From: Ignavibacteriales bacterium
GTDB taxonomy: Bacteria; Bacteroidota; Ignavibacteria; Ignavibacteriales; SURF-24
DNA: 64,000 nucleotides
NCBI GenBank assembly: GCA_026390815.1
Contig: JAPLFH010000012.1
Span: forward strand, 62,001-126,000
Direction of reading: 5' to 3'
A model generated the notes under the pieces. It was not told where the DNA came from. It worked only from the letters and a program-made list of their open reading frames with translations, and did not search any database. Within the stretch, counting starts at the first letter, position 1. Each line of letters opens with the position of its first letter. Shown in pieces: positions 25,977 through 44,563 of this stretch. Made by a program: the position numbers and the translations under genes.

Positions 25977-26552
25977 ATGTTAAAAATATTCTTAGTTTGT
26001 ATTTGGATATTTCTTATAACGTCGTCCGTTCTGGTTTCCCAACCACTGGATTTCTTTAGGGAAAAGATTGAAATTGAAGTTGGCGGTAATTATTGCAAAC
26101 TAATTGGGAAATACTTTTTTAGTAATTCAAGTAAACAACCACTCATTCAAACTTTTTATTATCCATTTATAGTTAACGATAGTCTTCCCTACCCAGACAA
26201 AATTTCTGTAGTAAATAACCGGGATAATTCACTAATCAAATTCAAGAAGCAAAAGAAAGGTATTATCCTTCAGGCGAAAATTAGTTCAAATGATACTTTA
26301 ATTTATACTGTGGAATATTCTCAGAAAACGCCATATAGTATGTTTGAATATATTCTAACTACAACACAAGAATGGCATAAACCGATTGTTGAAGCAGAAT
26401 ATGTTGTTAAAATTCCAAAAAAGTTTAAGCTGGATTTCAACTCACTTGGGTACGATAACAAATCAATCCAGAAAAGATTTACTGTATACAATCTGCAAAA
26501 GAAATATTTTATGCCTGATAAAAATTTCAAAATAAAATGGGGTACAAAATGA
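25977..26552 (+). CDS. Secreted protein of unknown function
   Basis: A 191-residue protein with a clear signal peptide (about residues 1-22, ending VLVSQ) and a beta-rich remainder including LIGKYFFSNSS, FYYPFIVNDSLPYPD and VEAEYVVKIPKKFKLDF. It is a single domain with no catalytic motif or family I can name. AAGGGGAT lies just before the ATG. It is 43 bases after the muramidase gene, and its stop overlaps the start of the next gene (ATGA), so it belongs to the same operon. Confidence 0.7.
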   Translation: MLKIFLVCIWIFLITSSVLVSQPLDFFREKIEIEVGGNYCKLIGKYFFSNSSKQPLIQTFYYPFIVNDSLPYPDKISVVNNRDNSLIKFKKQKKGIILQAKISSNDTLIYTVEYSQKTPYSMFEYILTTTQEWHKPIVEAEYVVKIPKKFKLDFNSLGYDNKSIQKRFTVYNLQKKYFMPDKNFKIKWGTK

Positions 26553-27607
26553 AAAGGATTTTCTCTTTAACAGTAATTTTATTTTTTGCAGTGACTTTGA
26601 ATCTCAAGGGGAATCCAATTTCAATAACATATTTTAGTGAATTATATTTCGATTCTACTGGATGGAAACTTGAGTTGCACAAAAGTCATTACGATGGGAG
26701 TTCTATTAATTTTAGAGGTTGGTATCTGAAATCATCTTCAGGACAAGCATTTTTTAAGGATAACATTGTATTAAGTGCTGCAGGTTATATGCGTGTTACC
26801 GTTGCCAAGTTATTAAATAATCTCATTATAAATCCGGAGGGTGACAGTCTTTTCTTATATGCACCAAATGAAGAATATCCAAGGGATTATTTTATTTTCG
26901 GAAATATGCCGGGATCAATGTACGATGCTCCAAAGATAAATCAGTCATTGTGTTTGGGTGGGGGATATTATTACGATAATACTCCGACATTTGGTGGTCC
27001 CAATGATACACTAAGTGCGTGTGGTTTAATCATTGGAACCATAAAAGACTCTTTAGGTATTCCTCTTAAAAAAATTAGAATAATAGCTTCTTGGGAAAGT
27101 CCGAGTTGGGGACTTCATAAAGTAATTTCATTTGTCAAAACTGATTCGCTTGGTCAGTTCAAAATAAGTTGCATATCAGGGGTGCCTTGTATTCTAATTG
27201 ATACAACCGATAAAGTATATTTTAGCTATACTGATATTTTAAAATGGATTACATTAAAACTTTGGCCTGAAGAAACTATTTATTTAAATGTTACTTTGCC
27301 AATTCTTGTGAACGTAGAACATCAAAACTTTTGGGAAAAGAATTTTATCTTAAATCAAAATTATCCCAATCCATTTAATCCAAATACAATTATAAAGTGG
27401 GAGATACCCATCAGGAGTCACGTTCAACTAAAGGTTTTTGATATTCTTGGAAATGAAGTCGCAACTCTTTTAAATGAAGAAAAGGACGCTGGTATTTACG
27501 ACAATCAATTTTCAGTCATCAATAATCAATTACCAAGCGGAATTTATTTCTACACTTTACAAGCTGGAAATCTCAGACAAACAAAAAAGATGATTGTTTT
27601 GAAATGA
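26549..27607 (+). CDS. Type IX-sorted secreted protein
   Basis: A 352-residue exported protein. A signal peptide (KRIFSLTVILFFAVTLNLKG) is followed by an N-terminal domain resembling a lamin-tail-like sandwich, a short carboxypeptidase-regulatory-like segment (about 160-245), and a C-terminal sorting domain. The latter has LNQNYPNPFNPNTIIKW, KVFDILGNEVATLL and SGIYFYTL, ending KKMIVLK. I set the start at 26549: GGGG precedes it and the ATG overlaps the upstream stop. An in-frame ATG at 26537 would overlap further. The cargo function is unknown; the sorting domain implies export through the type IX system to the cell surface. Confidence 0.83.
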   Translation: MKRIFSLTVILFFAVTLNLKGNPISITYFSELYFDSTGWKLELHKSHYDGSSINFRGWYLKSSSGQAFFKDNIVLSAAGYMRVTVAKLLNNLIINPEGDSLFLYAPNEEYPRDYFIFGNMPGSMYDAPKINQSLCLGGGYYYDNTPTFGGPNDTLSACGLIIGTIKDSLGIPLKKIRIIASWESPSWGLHKVISFVKTDSLGQFKISCISGVPCILIDTTDKVYFSYTDILKWITLKLWPEETIYLNVTLPILVNVEHQNFWEKNFILNQNYPNPFNPNTIIKWEIPIRSHVQLKVFDILGNEVATLLNEEKDAGIYDNQFSVINNQLPSGIYFYTLQAGNLRQTKKMIVLK

Positions 27608-28661: not shown

Positions 28662-28716
28662 AATTGAATTGTTAATCATTTATAAATGTTAATAGAGAAA
28701 TGGAGTTTATACAATT

Positions 28717-29973
28717 ATGAAAATATTTTCCCTTATAGGTTTTTCTCTTATTATAATTTTATTAACAGCAACAAGCCGATCCACCGCACAAACACGATAT
28801 CTGGATACTGTCTTTTCAAATATAAAGGTTACAAATGGAATACAGTTTGGATCCAACAAAAATGCTTTTGGAATAAATCAAAATTTACTGCTGGATATTT
28901 ATGAACCTGAAGGAGATACTTCGGCTTCTCGTCCTTTAATGATTTGGGTACACGGCGGAGCTTTTGTACTTGGAGATAGAAAATATGCTGATGTAGTCCT
29001 GTACTGTAAAGAATTTGCAAAACGTGGATACGTAACAGCTTCAATTGATTATAGGCTTGGGGTTACTTCATTTAATAACAAAGGTTATATGGAAGCCATT
29101 TTACGAGCCACACAAGATCTTAAAGCTGCTATCAGGTTTTTCCGCGCAAATGCTTCGGTATATAAAATCAATACGGAAAAGATTATTGCCGGTGGAACAT
29201 CTGCAGGTGGCTTTACTGCCATTCACACCGGATATTTGAATGCTGATGAGATTCCGTCAGAGATTGACACCAGCAAGATTGGAAGTATAGAGGGCAATTC
29301 AGGTAATCCCGGCTACTCTTCAAAATTTAATTTGATTGTAAATTGCTGGGGAGCGATAGTTGATACTAATTGGATGCAAGCCGGCGATCTTCCGGTTGTA
29401 AGCATCCATGGAACGGCAGATAATATTGTTCCCTGCTATAGTGGAAAAGCAATGGGAGTTTTCCCGGTTTATGGAAGTGGTGTAATTGAGCGAAACGTAA
29501 CAAGATTAGGGATTGAAAACAAATTAAAATTGTTTTATGGGGCTGGTCATCAGTTGATTGGAGGAAGTATGGATACTGTAAATGCGCGTTTCGATACTTC
29601 GATTACGGTTATAAGTAATTTTATTTATTCAACACTTATCAATCCATTCGTATCTGTTGAGAAACAATCGGATATTCCTGTAAAAGATTTTATTGTAGAT
29701 CAAAATTATCCGAATCCATTCAATCCAAGTACAATAATCAGCTATCAGTTACTATCATCTCTAAATCCCTCACAAGGAGGAACTTTAGTTTCTCTAAAGG
29801 TTTTTGATATCTTAGGTAAAGAAGTTGCAACATTAGTAAATGAAGTTCAAAAAGCAGGAATTTATAATTATACATTCTCAATTGATAATTATAAATTGAA
29901 AAGTGGAAATTATTTTTATAAGCTTACAGTCAATAATTTTTCAGAAACAAAGAAATTTACAGTTCTTAAATAG
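28717..29973 (+). CDS. Type IX-sorted alpha/beta-hydrolase (carboxylesterase-like)
   Basis: A 418-residue secreted esterase-like enzyme. After a signal peptide (to about residue 24) comes a hydrolase domain with the oxyanion motif WVHGGAFVLG (about 70-79), the nucleophile elbow GGTSAGGF (about 163-170), a likely Asp in HGTADNIVPC and His in GAGHQL. A C-terminal sorting domain follows (VDQNYPNPFNPSTII to KKFTVLK). The sorting domain carries an unusual insertion, LSSLNPSQGGTL, between its first two strands. GGAG lies 12 bases before the ATG. The substrate is unknown, though esters of polysaccharides or plant material are plausible. It ends 2 bases from the convergent lipoprotein gene. Confidence 0.88.
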   Translation: MKIFSLIGFSLIIILLTATSRSTAQTRYLDTVFSNIKVTNGIQFGSNKNAFGINQNLLLDIYEPEGDTSASRPLMIWVHGGAFVLGDRKYADVVLYCKEFAKRGYVTASIDYRLGVTSFNNKGYMEAILRATQDLKAAIRFFRANASVYKINTEKIIAGGTSAGGFTAIHTGYLNADEIPSEIDTSKIGSIEGNSGNPGYSSKFNLIVNCWGAIVDTNWMQAGDLPVVSIHGTADNIVPCYSGKAMGVFPVYGSGVIERNVTRLGIENKLKLFYGAGHQLIGGSMDTVNARFDTSITVISNFIYSTLINPFVSVEKQSDIPVKDFIVDQNYPNPFNPSTIISYQLLSSLNPSQGGTLVSLKVFDILGKEVATLVNEVQKAGIYNYTFSIDNYKLKSGNYFYKLTVNNFSETKKFTVLK

Positions 29974-37843: not shown

Positions 37844-40800
37844 ATGAAAAATAGATTTATAAATTTCTTTCATTTACTACTATTCATTTTAATAATTAAC
37901 GAAAATAGTTTTCCGCAAAGTTTTTCTTATACAGAAAGTTTTGAAAGTAGTAACCCATTTGTTTTTTGGACAAGCAATGCAACCTACACAATTAATTCTT
38001 TTAGTCCATCTATTGATCGGGCTTTTGATGGAAACCAATCACTTAAAATGGATATTACAATTAATGGAAGCGGTACAAAAGACTGCTATTATTACTGGAA
38101 GCTTCCGGTAAAAACAAACCTGCACGGTACAATAAATTTCTCAGCACGTTTGTGGATGGATGCAGATGCCGCAACTTATGTTAAGCTGGGTTATTATTAT
38201 GACTTTCCTCCAACCGGATTGGAACGCCTGCCAACAGCACCTACCGTTACGCAATTCAATACCTGGTTTACACAATCAACTGTGCTTTCAAATGATGTAG
38301 CCTATCATGCGGATTATTTTGCAAACACTAAAATCTATAATTCAACTAAAGATGATTTTGGTAGAGAATTACAATTTGTTGCGTTAACAATAAAAGCAAA
38401 AGGTTCTCACAGAATTATTTTTTACATCGATAAAGTAGAAATTACAGGAACAAATTTATCGCAAACGGATTTCGTTAATCAATATACAACTGCCTGGAAT
38501 AAATATAAATCAGAAGTAGATGCAATAGTTATCGGCAAGCATAGCGAATTTAACAATCTTCAACCTGTGCCTGATACAAGCGGACGTATTGTAACTCCTC
38601 AGGGACTAATTTATTTCAACAATTTGAAGAGCGCAAAAATTAATATGACTAATCTTTTAACAACAATGGATAATTCGGAATATTTTGCACCATCAATTAT
38701 GGATTCGATGAATACATTGTTAGGATTATATCCTTCCTGGGTAAATCTACTTATAAATGAAATTTCTAATCCTGGTTCTAAGCTTGATATTTTTTCATTC
38801 CCGGCAACAGCATTTAACCGATTAGATGAAACTAATCAACCTGGCGGTTTAACAAGTTTTGAAAAGTTAAATGTTCGGGCTTGTTCTGGTGAGTATGAGC
38901 CTCTATCAATTTTATTACAAGCAAAATCAAACATCAATAATATAAATGTGCGATGGACAGATTTTTCTGGTTCTTCTGGAACAATTCCATCTACTGCATT
39001 GGATGTATCAATTGCAAAAGTATGGTACCAGGCTGGTTTGGATGAGTACAGGACAACAAGCAAAATTCCTATGCAGGAGTTATTGGTTAAGAATGATAGT
39101 TTGATAAAAATGGACCTTATAAATAAATTGAATTACCTTCTTGTAACAAATTCAAATGGTTCTAAATCTTATATTGATATAACCACATCAAGCGCAACTT
39201 TTCCAACTGGAATTACCATTTCAGATAGTCCAACACTTCTTCCATTTAAAATAATGAATGGAAGAAATAAGCAACTTTGGCTTTCATTTCACATCCCGAC
39301 TGGAACACCAGCGGGAATTTACATTGCGCAATTTACTGTGTTGGAGAATCAAAATATTGTTAGAACATTTCCAGTTGAAATAGAAGTCCTTCCATTCAAT
39401 TTGGATCCTTCAAGATTAACTTATGGCGTCTATTATCATGGTTATTTAGATAATTTTACAGACCGACCATTTTATTATTCAAATAAAAAAGAAGCACAAC
39501 TTAGATTAGAACTGGCAGATATTAAAGAACATGGAATTCTTTATCCAACATGTTACCAATCATTAAATAATCTTGCGGGCGATTTACAAATTAGAAATGC
39601 AATTGGATTACCTAATGACAGGTTGTACACAGTTACATTTTCTGCCGGTAATCCACAAACACAGCCGGAACTTGATGCATTAAAATCCCAGGTTGCGCAA
39701 TGGAAAACAAAAATGTCCAGCAATGGATATTCCAATTTATATGTATATGGAATTGATGAAGCTACTGGCAGTACTTTAACAAGCCAAAGACCTGCATGGC
39801 AAGCGGTACACGATGCGGGGGCAAGTATTTTTGTTGCCAGTTATGTTGGAACTGCTGATATTATGGGAGATTTGCTCGATGTAGGAAACATACTTGGGGG
39901 TTTAAACTCAACTGAAGCAACCAAATATCATTCTTTTGGGCATAAAATATTTTCTTATTCTAATCCTCAAGTTGGATATGAAAACCCGGATGTTTATCGC
40001 CGCAATTATGGAATTGCATTATTACAAGCTGGTTATGATGGGGCTATGAATTACGCTTATCAGAAAAATTATGGTTCGTTTTGGAATGACTGGGATGGAG
40101 CAACTTACCGAGAACAATGTTTTACTTATCCCGTTTCAAATGGAATAATTTCAACCATCCAATGGGAAGGATTTAGAGAAGGGATTGATGATGTAAGATA
40201 TCTTTCTACACTTCTAAATAAAATAGATCAGCTTAAAGCTTCTGGCATTAATACTGCATCATTAGATCAATTTATTAATGCAATAAATACTTATGGAGAT
40301 TTGGATTTACTGCGCTCGCAAATTATTAGCAAAATTATAGAATCCCAAAACATAATACCAGAACCTGATAGAACACTTCCGCAGATAGTTGAAGCAACTA
40401 TCGTTAATCCAACCTGTTTAAAAGTAGATTTTGATGAAGCCTTGGATGCAACAACAGCTCAAAATAAATCCAATTTCACAATAGCATCTGGCATTACTGT
40501 TAACAGTGTTGTACTTAATGCTGATAACAAATCGGTTACCATCGCCACATCAACACATCATCCATATAGTTTATATACAATAACTGCAAACAATATACTT
40601 GATGTTACAGGAAATTTAATTAATCCAAACTTTAACAAACATTCATATTCATTTGGATCTTTTGTTAAAGTAAAAGCAAAAATATTTTTACAAGGTGCAT
40701 ATTCAAATAATTCAATGAATACAAATCTATTAGTATCCGGCGTAATTCCGCTTCAACAACCATATAATCTTCCACCTTGGAATTATCCTGGTAAAGAAAC

Positions 40801-41314
40801 AGTTTCAAAAATTCCATCGGGAACCGTAGATTGGTTATTGTTTGAACTTAGAACTGGAACGGGTGTTAATTCAATTGTAAGCCGCCGCGCTGCGTTTCTT
40901 AAATCTGATGGAAGAATATTTGATATTGATGATTCTGAAGGTGTTAAATTCGATAGTCTTATTCATGGTAACTATTACTTAGTTGTAAGACATAGAAATC
41001 ATCTTGGTATTATGAGTGCAAGTTTCATATTTCTTTCAGATACTTCTTCACAATATGATTTCACATCGGCAGCATCTAAAACTTATGGTGACGATCCAAT
41101 TGCCTTTTTAGGTAGTGGAATTTATGGTATGTACGCGGGTGATGGGGCTGCAAATGGAACTGTAAATGTTTTAGACTATTGCAGTGTTGCAAATAGTATT
41201 TTTCAAACTGGTTATAAACAAGGGGATATGGATTTAAACCAAGTAATAAATGTTTTGGATTATGGAAAGACTTACAAATCCCTCTTTAAAACCAGTAAAG
41301 TACCCTCTGATTAA
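37844..41314 (+). CDS. Giant secreted DUF4091 glycosidase-like protein with dockerin-like tail
   Basis: A 1156-residue exported protein. A signal peptide (to about residue 24) is followed by a carbohydrate-binding-like sandwich (about 26-205), a helical linker, and a DUF4091 unit (about 325-835). That unit has a beta domain and a TIM barrel with YVYGIDEATGS, whose Asp-Glu pair matches the GH123-like catalytic position. An SbsA-type Ig domain (about 848-950) and a further sandwich follow. The tail holds two loops spaced as in dockerins: AGDGAANGTVNVLDY (about 1097) and QGDMDLNQVINVLDY (about 1125). No type IX sorting domain is present. Its paralogue at 42875-44563 has only the DUF4091 unit. 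The substrate is unknown. Confidence 0.85.
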   Translation: MKNRFINFFHLLLFILIINENSFPQSFSYTESFESSNPFVFWTSNATYTINSFSPSIDRAFDGNQSLKMDITINGSGTKDCYYYWKLPVKTNLHGTINFSARLWMDADAATYVKLGYYYDFPPTGLERLPTAPTVTQFNTWFTQSTVLSNDVAYHADYFANTKIYNSTKDDFGRELQFVALTIKAKGSHRIIFYIDKVEITGTNLSQTDFVNQYTTAWNKYKSEVDAIVIGKHSEFNNLQPVPDTSGRIVTPQGLIYFNNLKSAKINMTNLLTTMDNSEYFAPSIMDSMNTLLGLYPSWVNLLINEISNPGSKLDIFSFPATAFNRLDETNQPGGLTSFEKLNVRACSGEYEPLSILLQAKSNINNINVRWTDFSGSSGTIPSTALDVSIAKVWYQAGLDEYRTTSKIPMQELLVKNDSLIKMDLINKLNYLLVTNSNGSKSYIDITTSSATFPTGITISDSPTLLPFKIMNGRNKQLWLSFHIPTGTPAGIYIAQFTVLENQNIVRTFPVEIEVLPFNLDPSRLTYGVYYHGYLDNFTDRPFYYSNKKEAQLRLELADIKEHGILYPTCYQSLNNLAGDLQIRNAIGLPNDRLYTVTFSAGNPQTQPELDALKSQVAQWKTKMSSNGYSNLYVYGIDEATGSTLTSQRPAWQAVHDAGASIFVASYVGTADIMGDLLDVGNILGGLNSTEATKYHSFGHKIFSYSNPQVGYENPDVYRRNYGIALLQAGYDGAMNYAYQKNYGSFWNDWDGATYREQCFTYPVSNGIISTIQWEGFREGIDDVRYLSTLLNKIDQLKASGINTASLDQFINAINTYGDLDLLRSQIISKIIESQNIIPEPDRTLPQIVEATIVNPTCLKVDFDEALDATTAQNKSNFTIASGITVNSVVLNADNKSVTIATSTHHPYSLYTITANNILDVTGNLINPNFNKHSYSFGSFVKVKAKIFLQGAYSNNSMNTNLLVSGVIPLQQPYNLPPWNYPGKETVSKIPSGTVDWLLFELRTGTGVNSIVSRRAAFLKSDGRIFDIDDSEGVKFDSLIHGNYYLVVRHRNHLGIMSASFIFLSDTSSQYDFTSAASKTYGDDPIAFLGSGIYGMYAGDGAANGTVNVLDYCSVANSIFQTGYKQGDMDLNQVINVLDYGKTYKSLFKTSKVPSD

Positions 41315-41619
41315 TGCTAACATTACTATGGTAAATCCTAAATAAATTAAATAGAAATATTTTTATGAATTTACTAAGACTGCTCAACTATTTGTTGAAC
41401 AGTCTTAATTATTACTCGAATAATAAAATATAGTTGAATATTCAGCTCTCATTTTTCTAACTTCGGATAAATAACTACATGCAATTCTTACTTACAATAA
41501 ATTTTTTATTTGAAAAGATGCTGATATTAGATTGTTTTTGATGGCATAATTCTTTCTATATAATTTCCGAGGAAGTGCTTAAATAATAGATTTAAAAGGT
41601 TAATCACGGATGGGTCGCC
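41315..41619. other. 305-base gap between the DUF4091 gene and the cohesin-like gene
   Basis: No gene on either strand. A terminator-like hairpin lies at 41375-41407. The rest is AT-rich, and TATATAAT at about 41559 may belong to a promoter of the gene starting at 41620. I could not find a matching upstream box with confidence. Confidence 0.6.
41375..41407 (+). terminator. Terminator-like hairpin after the DUF4091 gene
   Basis: TAAGACTGCTCAAC pairs with GTTGAACAGTCTTA around a 5-base TATTT loop, a 14-base stem with one mismatch, 60 bases past the stop codon. The following run is AATTATTA rather than pure T, so termination efficiency is uncertain. Confidence 0.6.
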
Positions 41620-42759
41620 ATGAGTACTTTAACAAAGTCGTATGCACATTTTGGCTTTATAAATAAATTCTTTTTTTGGATCTTGCTCTTATCTGTTATA
41701 ACAATCCAAACAAGTTTTCCCCAGGGACATCTTAGTATTTCAAATAGTTTAGAAATTGATGATAAAACTTTTGAATTCGAAATTCATATTCAAAGTACAG
41801 GAGCTAGTTTTGAATTAACTTCTTATCAATGTGTAGTGGGTTTTAATCAAGAAATACTAAATGGAGGTACATTGACATTTAGTTATATAGCAGCCTCCTC
41901 TCAACTTAGCAATCAGCCGTTAAATCAAGCAGTTGAAAATGATAATGGAAGTGAACGGTTATGTATGGCTTCATGGCCTGGCAGCGATATTATTTCGAGC
42001 ACTTATACAAGACTTGGAAGATTCAGAATTCAAAATTCAGTCCCATTTGGCCATTATACCACAGGTTTTCTTTGGGATACAGTCGGAACACAACGTACAA
42101 TGTTAACTGGAAGCGGTTTTATAGATATTACGCAGCAATTCACTTTCTTCGGTTTGGATACACCAATGCCAGTTGAGTTAACTTTGTTTAATGCTAACTT
42201 TGAAAATGATTTTGTAAAATTAAATTGGGAAACAGCAACTGAAATGAACGTTTGGGGATTTGAAATTCAACGTAAGATATTCTCATCCTCCAATAATGAA
42301 GAATGGAATAAGATTGGATTTGTAAACGGTGCTGGTACCTCTAATTCGTATAAAAAATATAATTTCCAGGATGTTAATTGCGGAAAGACTGGTAAATATT
42401 TTTATCGATTAAAAATGATTGATATTGATGGCGCTTATTCAAACTCTGATGAAGTAGAAATTATGGTTGAGAAACCATTGAACTATTCACTTCTTCAAAA
42501 CTATCCTAATCCTTTCAATCCTTCAACTAAAATTTCATATTCATTAAAAAATCAGAGCAATGTAAAGTTAACGATTTACAATTCGATAGGCGAACTGGTT
42601 GAAACGCTGGTTAATAATAACCAACTGGCTGGTAGTTATGAGACCGTTTGGAATGCTATGAATTTATCTTCTGGTATTTATTTTTATAGGATAGGAGTAA
42701 GCTCAACTGAAGGAAAAGAGAATTTTACTGCTGTAAACAAAATGCAACTTGTAAAATAA
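41620..42759 (+). CDS. Type IX-sorted protein with cohesin-like N-terminal domain
   Basis: A 379-residue secreted protein. The signal peptide runs to about residue 33. Residues about 35-180 form a beta sandwich whose pattern (FEFEIHIQSTGASFELTSYQ, VVGFNQEILNGG, LGRFRIQN) resembles cohesin domains. A fibronectin-like segment follows (VKLNWETATEMNVWGFEIQR to YFYRLKMIDIDG), then a sorting domain (LLQNYPNPFNPSTKISYS to NKMQLVK). The ETATEMN...FEIQR module commonly precedes sorting domains. It is adjacent to a dockerin-tailed DUF4091 protein. The cohesin assignment is by eye and needs a profile search. A hairpin at 42769-42832 follows the stop. Confidence 0.8.
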   Translation: MSTLTKSYAHFGFINKFFFWILLLSVITIQTSFPQGHLSISNSLEIDDKTFEFEIHIQSTGASFELTSYQCVVGFNQEILNGGTLTFSYIAASSQLSNQPLNQAVENDNGSERLCMASWPGSDIISSTYTRLGRFRIQNSVPFGHYTTGFLWDTVGTQRTMLTGSGFIDITQQFTFFGLDTPMPVELTLFNANFENDFVKLNWETATEMNVWGFEIQRKIFSSSNNEEWNKIGFVNGAGTSNSYKKYNFQDVNCGKTGKYFYRLKMIDIDGAYSNSDEVEIMVEKPLNYSLLQNYPNPFNPSTKISYSLKNQSNVKLTIYNSIGELVETLVNNNQLAGSYETVWNAMNLSSGIYFYRIGVSSTEGKENFTAVNKMQLVK

Positions 42760-42874: not shown

Positions 42875-44563
42875 CTATTCAATCGAAAGAATCTTATCAA
42901 TTATTTGTTGTCTAAGCATATCCAAATCTACTGAAGTATCTATTGAATTGATCCACTGCTCCAAACTGGAAACATCTTTCCCTTTTGCTTTTAATCTATC
43001 TATCTTGTTAAGCAAGGTAGAAAGATATCGTACATCGTTAACTCCTTCTCTAAATCCTTCCCACTGAATTGTAGAAATTATTCCATCTGCCGTAGGATAA
43101 GTGAAATTTTCATCTCTATATTTTTTACTATCCCAATCATTCCAGGTACTACCATAATTCTTCTGATATGCATAATCCATAGCCCCATCATAACCAGCTT
43201 TCCATAATGCTATTCCATAATTCCTTCTATAAATCTCAGGATTCTCTTCCCCTGCCTGTGGATTGGAATAAGAAAATATTTTATTTTTTTTGGAATGATA
43301 AAATATTGCCTGTTCTTTGTCCAATTCCCCTTGAATGATACCAACGTCAAGCAGGTCACCCATTGCTGCATAAGTTTCTCTGTAACCAGCAACAAATATT
43401 TTAGCTCCAATATCTCTCACAGCTTTCCAGGCAGGTCGTTGACTGGTAAGCTGATCACCTCTCGCTTCATCTATTCCATAAACATAAAGTTCTTTATAAC
43501 CAAATTGGGTAATCTTATTCTGCCAGGCTTTTACATTTTCTTTAAGATTATTAATTTCACTTTCAGATTGCGGGTTACCGGTTGTAATTCCCAAAGTAAA
43601 AATCTTATCGTTTTGTAAACCAACTTCTTTTCTAATCTTCAAATCATTATCTAAATTTTGTAAGACCTGGTAAGTGGTTGGATAAAGAACCCCATGCTCT
43701 TTCAAATCCTTCATTTCGATTCTATATTGCTTTTCAGTTTTATTAGTGTAATGCATGGTTCGTTTTGTAAAATTATCCACATAACCATGGTAATAAATGC
43801 CGTAAGTTATTCGAGATTCATCAAGCTTAAAAGGAAGAACTTCAATTTCAATCGGGAAAGATTTAAGTGTTTCATTATCATCCGAAATTGTAACCTGACT
43901 AATATACTTTCCGGAGGCAACATTAGACGGAATGTGAATTGTTAACCAAATCTGTTTATTAAAATTTGCTTCAATAGAAAAAGGTAACAAGGATTGGCTA
44001 TCCTCAATAATGCCATTTTCCGGAAAAATTGCTGTTGGAGTGGTAACGTCAACGTAAGATTCAGATCCATTTGGAAATTTTACAAGAATAAAATTCATTT
44101 CCTTTTCATAATCTACTTTTATCAGGTTATCGTTTTTTATAAGTAGTTCTTGAGTTAAAATTTTTTGTGTGTTATCACTGGTTCTATATCCCGCTTGGTA
44201 CCATACTTTTGCAATTGAAACATCCAGAGCTGTGTTTGGGATTTTCCCGGAATTGCCAATAAAATCGGTCCACATTATTTTAATATTTTTTAGTTTTTCA
44301 TTTGCTTGAATAAGAAAAGAAAGTGGTAAATATTCCCCAGGTGAACTTCTAGCTGTTAACTTTTCAAGAGGTTTAATATCATCTGGTAAATTCTTGCCAG
44401 TAAGTCGATTATATTTTGTTGGTGGAATAACATAAAAATCTGCTTTTGAATCAGGATTCTTTTTTACAATTTTTGGAAACTCAATGTTAGATGAAAATAG
44501 AAATCCTATAATAATAAATAAGAAAATAATTGTAAGATATTTCATAATCACTTTAAGATTCAT
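42875..44563 (-). CDS. DUF4091 glycosidase-like protein, membrane-anchored or secreted
   Basis: A 562-residue paralogue of the central part of the 1156-residue protein at 37844. A hydrophobic N-terminus (YLTIIFLFIIIGFLFSS) is followed by the beta domain (LTARSSPGEYLPLSFLIQA, IAKVWYQAGYR) and barrel (ITYGIYYHGYVDNF, YVYGIDEARGDQLTSQRPAW, TIQWEGFREGVNDVRYLS). Many blocks match the larger protein almost exactly. The Asp-Glu pair is kept. It lacks both the N-terminal sandwich and the dockerin-like tail. It lies next to the exopolysaccharide cluster, so it may trim or degrade that polymer. The ATG at 44545 is an alternative start. Confidence 0.86.
   Translation of the reverse strand: MNLKVIMKYLTIIFLFIIIGFLFSSNIEFPKIVKKNPDSKADFYVIPPTKYNRLTGKNLPDDIKPLEKLTARSSPGEYLPLSFLIQANEKLKNIKIMWTDFIGNSGKIPNTALDVSIAKVWYQAGYRTSDNTQKILTQELLIKNDNLIKVDYEKEMNFILVKFPNGSESYVDVTTPTAIFPENGIIEDSQSLLPFSIEANFNKQIWLTIHIPSNVASGKYISQVTISDDNETLKSFPIEIEVLPFKLDESRITYGIYYHGYVDNFTKRTMHYTNKTEKQYRIEMKDLKEHGVLYPTTYQVLQNLDNDLKIRKEVGLQNDKIFTLGITTGNPQSESEINNLKENVKAWQNKITQFGYKELYVYGIDEARGDQLTSQRPAWKAVRDIGAKIFVAGYRETYAAMGDLLDVGIIQGELDKEQAIFYHSKKNKIFSYSNPQAGEENPEIYRRNYGIALWKAGYDGAMDYAYQKNYGSTWNDWDSKKYRDENFTYPTADGIISTIQWEGFREGVNDVRYLSTLLNKIDRLKAKGKDVSSLEQWINSIDTSVDLDMLRQQIIDKILSIE

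Follow-up and report, generated by a model that had tools for sequence, protein, structure and literature searches.

A putative T9SS-anchored cohesin-like partner for an X-module-dockerin glycosidase in Ignavibacteria

Introduction

How might a secreted enzyme that carries no sorting domain be held at the surface of a Gram-negative bacterium? The question is raised by two neighbouring genes in the window, a 64,000-nucleotide stretch of an Ignavibacteriales genome (contig JAPLFH010000012.1). The upstream gene encodes a GH123/DUF4091-like protein (p1), the downstream gene a smaller protein with a type IX secretion system (T9SS) sorting domain (p2). The initial annotation, made from the sequence alone, had proposed that p2 sits at the surface and docks p1 in the manner of a cohesin and a dockerin. 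Docking through cohesins and dockerins is regarded as a device that clostridia use on plant fibre. Our analysis makes it very probable that the p1 enzyme is docked on a T9SS-anchored p2 cohesin, a one-to-one, cellulosome-like mode of anchoring in Gram-negative bacteria, although neither a complex prediction nor binding data are available.

Results

Architecture of the p1-p2 locus

Both open reading frames were recovered as initially annotated (Table 1), and Sec-type signal peptides are recognizable by inspection at the N-termini of p1 and p2. The genes are separated by 305 nt containing a stable hairpin, an arrangement that we count against the docking reading. No terminator-like site was found between p1 and p2: the hairpin has no T-run and is therefore not a classical terminator. 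It may cut or tune transcription from p1 to p2. Two further reading frames in the window encode T9SS sorting domains (26522-27604 and 28696-29970); they are unrelated to the pair.

Table 1. Features of the p1-p2 locus, in window coordinates.
Feature	Position	Strand	Description or basis
p1	37844-41314	+	1156 aa ORF; secreted GH123/DUF4091-like protein with predicted C-terminal X-module-dockerin tail
p1 GH123-like core	38780-40357	+	Alignment with p3 and a relative's copy; profile against PDB
p1 Big_5-like Ig domain	40385-40657	+	Between core and tail; 22.5 bits, just below cut-off 23.6
p1 X-module-like β-sandwich	40658-41137	+	Residues 939-1098; AlphaFold2 model, XDoc matches
p1 dockerin-like module	41138-41293	+	Residues 1099-1150; model, XDoc matches, loop symmetry, profile against PDB
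p1 calcium-type loop 1	41141-41176	+	DGAANGTVNVLD; sequence, helix after loop in model
p1 calcium-type loop 2	41225-41260	+	DMDLNQVINVLD; sequence, helix after loop in model
Hairpin in p1-p2 gap	41375-41407	+	z -4.85 for 41345-41425 (81 nt)
p2	41620-42759	+	379 aa ORF; surface anchor protein (location inferred)
p2 cohesin-like domain	41725-42159	+	Residues 36-180 (about 145 residues); fold model, family searches
p2 linker domain	42169-42474	+	PVELTLFNANF...; common to most partner proteins
p2 type A T9SS C-terminal sorting domain	42490-42756	+	PF18962 and TIGR04183 above cut-off
p3	42875-44563	-	GH123-like paralogue of p1; neighbour outside the docking pair

The GH123-like core and its paralogue

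The DUF4091 label of p1 proved right in kind. A profile of the p1 core, p3, and a relative's copy matched five PDB sequences, all of them GH123-type enzymes (best E 1.6e-4). The matches to GH123 β-N-acetylgalactosaminidases (PDB 8k2f, 5l7r) are weak and consistent across the p1/p3 core, which remains distant from these enzymes and has no known substrate. In p3, Glyco_hydro_123_N_2 reaches 28.7 bits (cut-off 27), whereas p1 falls below the cut-off; the p1 core is 59% identical to p3 and 71% identical to the relative's copy. A YGIDE motif in the p1 core contains the D-E pair expected of GH123 enzymes, which we take to be the catalytic pair. The two paralogues are convergent, and only p1 bears the docking tail; neither an X-module-dockerin tail nor a sorting domain was found in p3 by Pfam and NCBIfam searches. 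Together they suggest a surface copy (p1) and a periplasmic copy (p3) of the GH123-like protein.

The p1 tail resembles clostridial X-module-dockerin dyads

The last 218 residues of p1 (939-1156) yielded an AlphaFold2 model with a mean pLDDT of 96.7, based on an alignment with 52 relatives. In a comparison of this model with the PDB, X-module-dockerin (XDoc) chains from type II cohesin-dockerin complexes of clostridia fill the first eight places (Foldseek E 4e-5 to 1.6e-4). VIA-align scores for these chains range from Z 10.3 to 11.3 over about 148/156 residues, while the next unrelated row reaches only 5.7. The model meets the criterion for an XDoc fold, namely an X-module β-sandwich packed on a dockerin. 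Where the initial annotation had read the tail as a dockerin, the dockerin stands but is not alone, since the XDoc matches place an X-module before it.

The dockerin-spaced, calcium-loop-like repeats noted earlier are present as two 12-residue loops of the form D-x-x-x-N-x-x-[VI]-x-x-x-D (D1100-D1111 and D1128-D1139). They lie 28 residues apart, both end in NVLDY, and each is followed by a helix in the model (model helices 171-178 and 199-207). A tail lacking these two loop-plus-helix units would have refuted the proposal, and this outcome was not obtained. Loop 1 has an alanine where a ligand is usual. Internal symmetry between the two repeats usually marks a dockerin that has two binding modes. 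Among 72 tails, identity between the loops at positions 10, 11, and 13 is 0.57 within a protein versus 0.13 after shuffling (0/5000 shuffles); the excess is smaller yet significant in the Bacteroidales-rich tail set.

Standard family profiles barely register this module. Dockerin_1 (PF00404) gives the p1 tail 9.3 bits and does not reach its gathering cut-off of 22.9. The same family weakly matches 4/52 tail relatives (best E 0.0026) and is the only Pfam family to match more than one of them. When a profile of the tail was compared with PDB sequences, eight of the 11 matches were dockerin-bearing chains, and these weak dockerin matches ranked above all else (best E 0.014). On the strength of the model and these comparisons, the p1 tail is an X-module followed by a dockerin, with calcium binding inferred. 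By analogy to type II complexes, it is likewise inferred that the X-module makes the interface stiffer or wider.

GTDB contigs contain 435 relatives of the tail, with close ones among Bacteroidales, Calditrichaeota, Cloacimonadota, Chlorobiota, Saprospiraceae, and Melioribacter; a plasmid search with the tail gave no match.

p2 combines a sorting domain with a cohesin-like domain

The T9SS assignment of p2 in the initial annotation was borne out. Residues 291-361 match both Por_Secre_tail (PF18962; 36.5 bits, cut-off 27) and TIGR04183 (30.8 bits, cut-off 23). The genome also encodes the T9SS translocon SprA/Sov and contains at least 150 sorting-domain matches.

The cohesin-like part of that description rests on indirect evidence. 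Profile searches with Pfam Cohesin and Dockerin_1, which had been put forward as a check of the pair, failed: Cohesin (PF00963) does not match p2, and the p1 tail stays far below its cut-off as described above. Neither half of the pair was detected when the window proteins were searched one sequence at a time against Pfam and the PDB. The model of the p2 N-terminal domain is weak (mean pLDDT 57.7, alignment of six sequences). At this low confidence it displays a β-sandwich of the cohesin/CBM3 type, and the absence of a cohesin fold, which would have spoken against the proposal, was not observed. By Foldseek, a type II cohesin ranks first (E 1.4e-3) amid many cohesins and CBM3 modules. Cohesins and CBM3 modules belong to the same fold superfamily, and the fold of p2 by itself is therefore not decisive for a nine-stranded cohesin.

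A CBM3-like carbohydrate-binding module would let p2 bind substrate beside p1 instead of binding the p1 tail. VIA-align ranks CBM3b modules first on the weak model (Z up to 9.3, compared to 7.6 for cohesins), and clustering of genes by function would likewise place the two genes side by side. We nevertheless regard this as unlikely. No CBM family of Pfam matches any of 56 relatives of the domain, while Cohesin matches four of them (best E 2.8e-4) and is the sole Pfam family to match more than one. Further, a CBM would not be expected to co-occur almost totally with the tail whatever its cargo, nor to covary with a dockerin more strongly than domains of one polypeptide covary with each other; both patterns are documented below.

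The cohesin reading is also favoured by one locus (L043), in which a Pfam-grade cohesin (42.6 bits) with a sorting domain is encoded directly before a tail gene, within a five-gene run in which cohesin-sorting proteins alternate with cohesin-tail proteins. The link between partner groups required depth. Profiles compared directly while still shallow gave no clear link, but a deeper iterated profile search merged the three partner-domain groups that had been separate at first. A pooled profile of the 56 cohesin-like domains found no match among PDB sequences. The assignment of the p2 N-terminal domain as cohesin-like is supported by its relatives, by covariation, and by the low-confidence model, in the absence of a Pfam match on p2 itself; the Pfam-matching relatives, the L043 arrangement, and the covariation with dockerins favour a cohesin.

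Tail and cohesin-like domain co-occur and are encoded side by side

Across 294 genomes of the window's class, the tail is found in 117 and the cohesin-like domain in 96. Both occur in 93 genomes, the cohesin-like domain alone in 3, the tail alone in 24, and neither in 174 (Fisher p 2e-49). This genome-wide count was scored independently of gene neighbourhood. A control table omitting the 43 genomes used in model building retains the pattern (53 with both, 2 with only the cohesin-like domain, 22 with only the tail, 174 with neither; Fisher p 6e-34). As species are not independent, these p values overstate the number of events.

Gene order points in the same direction. Among the matches listed, the cohesin-like domain is encoded directly 3' of the tail in 55/60 cases, distributed over 52 genomes, with a median distance of 95 nt between the two; 19 of these genomes were not used in model building. 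We also counted next genes in regions chosen solely because they hold a tail gene, skipping consecutive tail genes. Of the 50 tail genes counted in the class, 33 have a T9SS gene as the next one downstream, and 27 of these 33 T9SS genes encode a relative of the p2 cohesin-like domain. Two genomes account for most of the exceptions; in one, tail genes form long arrays, and in the other there are divergent half-tails.

The survey of neighbouring genes, which the initial annotation had framed around DUF4091 genes, was strongly positive for the gene pair as such, in adjacency as well as in co-occurrence (93/96), yet it was not confined to that cargo. In relatives, the tail is carried by subtilase, GDSL lipase, polysaccharide deacetylase, GH16-like, DUF4838, β-helix, and propeller proteins, and hence the pair is not tied to DUF4091. 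The tail/cohesin-like module is a general display device rather than a part of a DUF4091 enzyme. The genome analysed here encodes one tail and one cohesin-like domain of the p2-type family, so that the pair looks dedicated and one-to-one.

As initially claimed, p1 lacks a sorting domain: none was found by Pfam and NCBIfam searches. Indeed, the tail and a sorting domain are mutually exclusive in the set inspected, with 0/169 tail proteins having a sorting domain of their own. The same exclusion would be seen if the tail itself were an alternative signal for outer-membrane export or attachment, with an unknown receptor and with p2 as a mere neighbour or chaperone. Such a signal would also accommodate the Bacteroidales-rich loci, where many tail genes have no adjacent cohesin-like gene, and the 10/13 genomes sampled via loci of other groups in which no member of the cohesin-like family was found. 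Within the class, the cohesin-like profile found no partner in the 24 tail-only genomes among the 117 with a tail; these gaps, inside the class and beyond it, weigh against the docking reading. The fold of the tail, in contrast, is that of a known docking module, and the window's class shows a conserved partner that varies together with the dockerin. An export or attachment signal of this kind thus appears quite improbable to us.

Covariation between the cohesin-like domain and the neighbouring dockerin

For 39 gene pairs, distances between cohesin-like domains correlate with those between the dockerins of the neighbouring protein at r 0.67. The values for domains within one polypeptide are lower, with r 0.38 for the cohesin-like domain versus its own sorting domain and r 0.51 for the dockerin versus its own X-module. 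The cohesin-dockerin correlation is the highest in 4/4 subsets, with modest bootstrap margins in some. Shared ancestry alone would act on domains of the same protein at least equally.

This result also bears on whether the p1 tail docks on another cohesin while p2 holds something else. The same genome does encode Pfam-grade cohesins with sorting domains on two other contigs (C59 and C32). However, a cohesin-like gene lies next to the tail in 52 genomes, covariation ties this neighbour to the dockerin, and the dockerin proteins on C59 bear sorting domains of their own, making docking elsewhere very improbable. The comparative evidence settles most of the identity of the pair.

Related cohesin and dockerin arrangements

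Several other arrangements were noticed. The cohesins and dockerins of Pfam grade on C59 (L140, 4599-19046) and C32 (L141, 7250-15967), clustered on C59, occur within large proteins, every one of which has a T9SS sorting domain. They form a separate second set, whose dockerin proteins retain sorting domains of their own. A cellulosome-like cluster of roughly 45 kb (L225-L227; genome G277, contig C21) encodes about a dozen tail proteins, including lipase, GH16-like, and DUF4838 proteins, together with one cohesin-like T9SS gene. Several families (L202-L213, L219) retain another pair, in which a cohesin-like T9SS protein of 430-470 aa stands next to a tail protein of about 700-830 aa; genomes of only 1.9-2.0 Mb are among those that have it. 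The L203 tail protein, the only one of these scanned, has no clear Pfam cargo domain. Adaptor-like proteins with two cohesin-like domains and a short X-module-dockerin tail (L217, 4666-6828; L218, 6733-8799) adjoin giant tail-bearing proteins. Finally, a 1427-aa T9SS protein from Cloacimonadota (L062, 2145-7785) combines a cohesin-like domain of the p2 family with a second cohesin-like domain and is flanked by two tail-bearing genes.

Discussion

In the mechanism that we propose, p2, which joins a single cohesin-like domain to a type A sorting domain, would be exported by the Sec pathway, carried across the outer membrane by the T9SS, and fixed at the surface as a dedicated anchor for p1. p1 would be a secreted GH123-like glycosidase whose terminal X-module-dockerin dyad places the dockerin on the cohesin-like domain of p2. 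If this inferred direct binding occurs, the enzyme would stay at the surface even though it has no sorting domain; its surface location is inferred as well.

Whether the partners meet in the periplasm or outside, and by which route p1 leaves the cell, can likewise only be inferred. One possibility, to which we give somewhat less than even weight, is that docking takes place in the periplasm, after which the T9SS carries p1 over the outer membrane as a passenger attached to p2, the partner with the sorting domain. Type II secretion was considered as an exit for p1 and rejected, as only two weak secretin matches were found (68.9 and 45.6 bits, cut-off 351).

The gene pair, most likely a plug (dockerin) and its socket (cohesin), turns up in dozens of related genomes, where standard protein-family searches miss it. 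A diverged, one-to-one T9SS version in about a third of the sampled genomes of the class would widen the known use of the docking system. The pair would also prompt one to ask how a protein that has no sorting domain leaves the cell; the passenger route, if true, would amount to subunit-based T9SS export, employed throughout a bacterial class for cargo of many kinds. Surface display, too, would gain new orthogonal protein pairs.

Cohesin and dockerin modules outside cellulosomes have reportedly been described by Peer et al. in 2009 (cited in PMC8542988); the present case differs from them as a conserved partner gene pair with covariation. The literature searched, from which most subscription journals and all bioRxiv preprints were outside the scope, contained no description of a p1-type tail or of a one-cohesin anchor family. 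In the genome paper on Melioribacter roseus, cellulases lack dockerin or scaffoldin domains (PMC3534657), and a study of rumen Bacteroidetes reported no cohesins or dockerins (PMC5831590). Type A cargo of the T9SS with C-terminal sorting domains has been reviewed (PMC5445135). By domain content p2 belongs to this group, whereas p1, if at the surface at all, would be there without a sorting domain.

A T9SS-anchored cohesin is not new in itself. For Candidatus Stygibacter (Cloacimonadota), a cellulosome-like complex has been proposed on genomic grounds, made up of enzymes bearing dockerins and of a scaffoldin that has cohesins and, at its C-terminus, a T9SS-type domain (PMC8542988). That scaffoldin is a single protein of 3,755 aa with repeated cohesins and CBMs detected by InterPro (PMC8542988). 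In contrast, p2-type anchors are small, contain one cohesin-like domain, adjoin their enzyme, lie outside the reach of Pfam, and occur in many genomes of another lineage. The definition of a cellulosome, with several cohesins, usually a CBM, and several dockerin enzymes, is not met by p2 with its one cohesin-like domain and no detected CBM.

The closest parallel is the type II cohesin-XDoc system of Clostridium thermocellum (CipA XDoc with the SdbA, OlpB, and Orf2p cohesins; PDB 2b59, 3kcp, 5g5d), and the pair would work like this form of anchoring, in that the p1 tail meets the test of an XDoc fold and p2 meets that of a cohesin only indirectly. Both systems share a C-terminal X-module-dockerin dyad with two loop-helix units and a cohesin, represented in p2 by a cohesin-like domain, on a partner that is, or in the case of p2 is inferred to be, anchored at the surface. 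In C. thermocellum, the XDoc belongs to a multi-cohesin scaffoldin of a Gram-positive cell with S-layer anchoring. In the pair described here, the enzyme itself bears the predicted XDoc, and its putative partner offers one cohesin-like domain anchored by the T9SS across the outer membrane.
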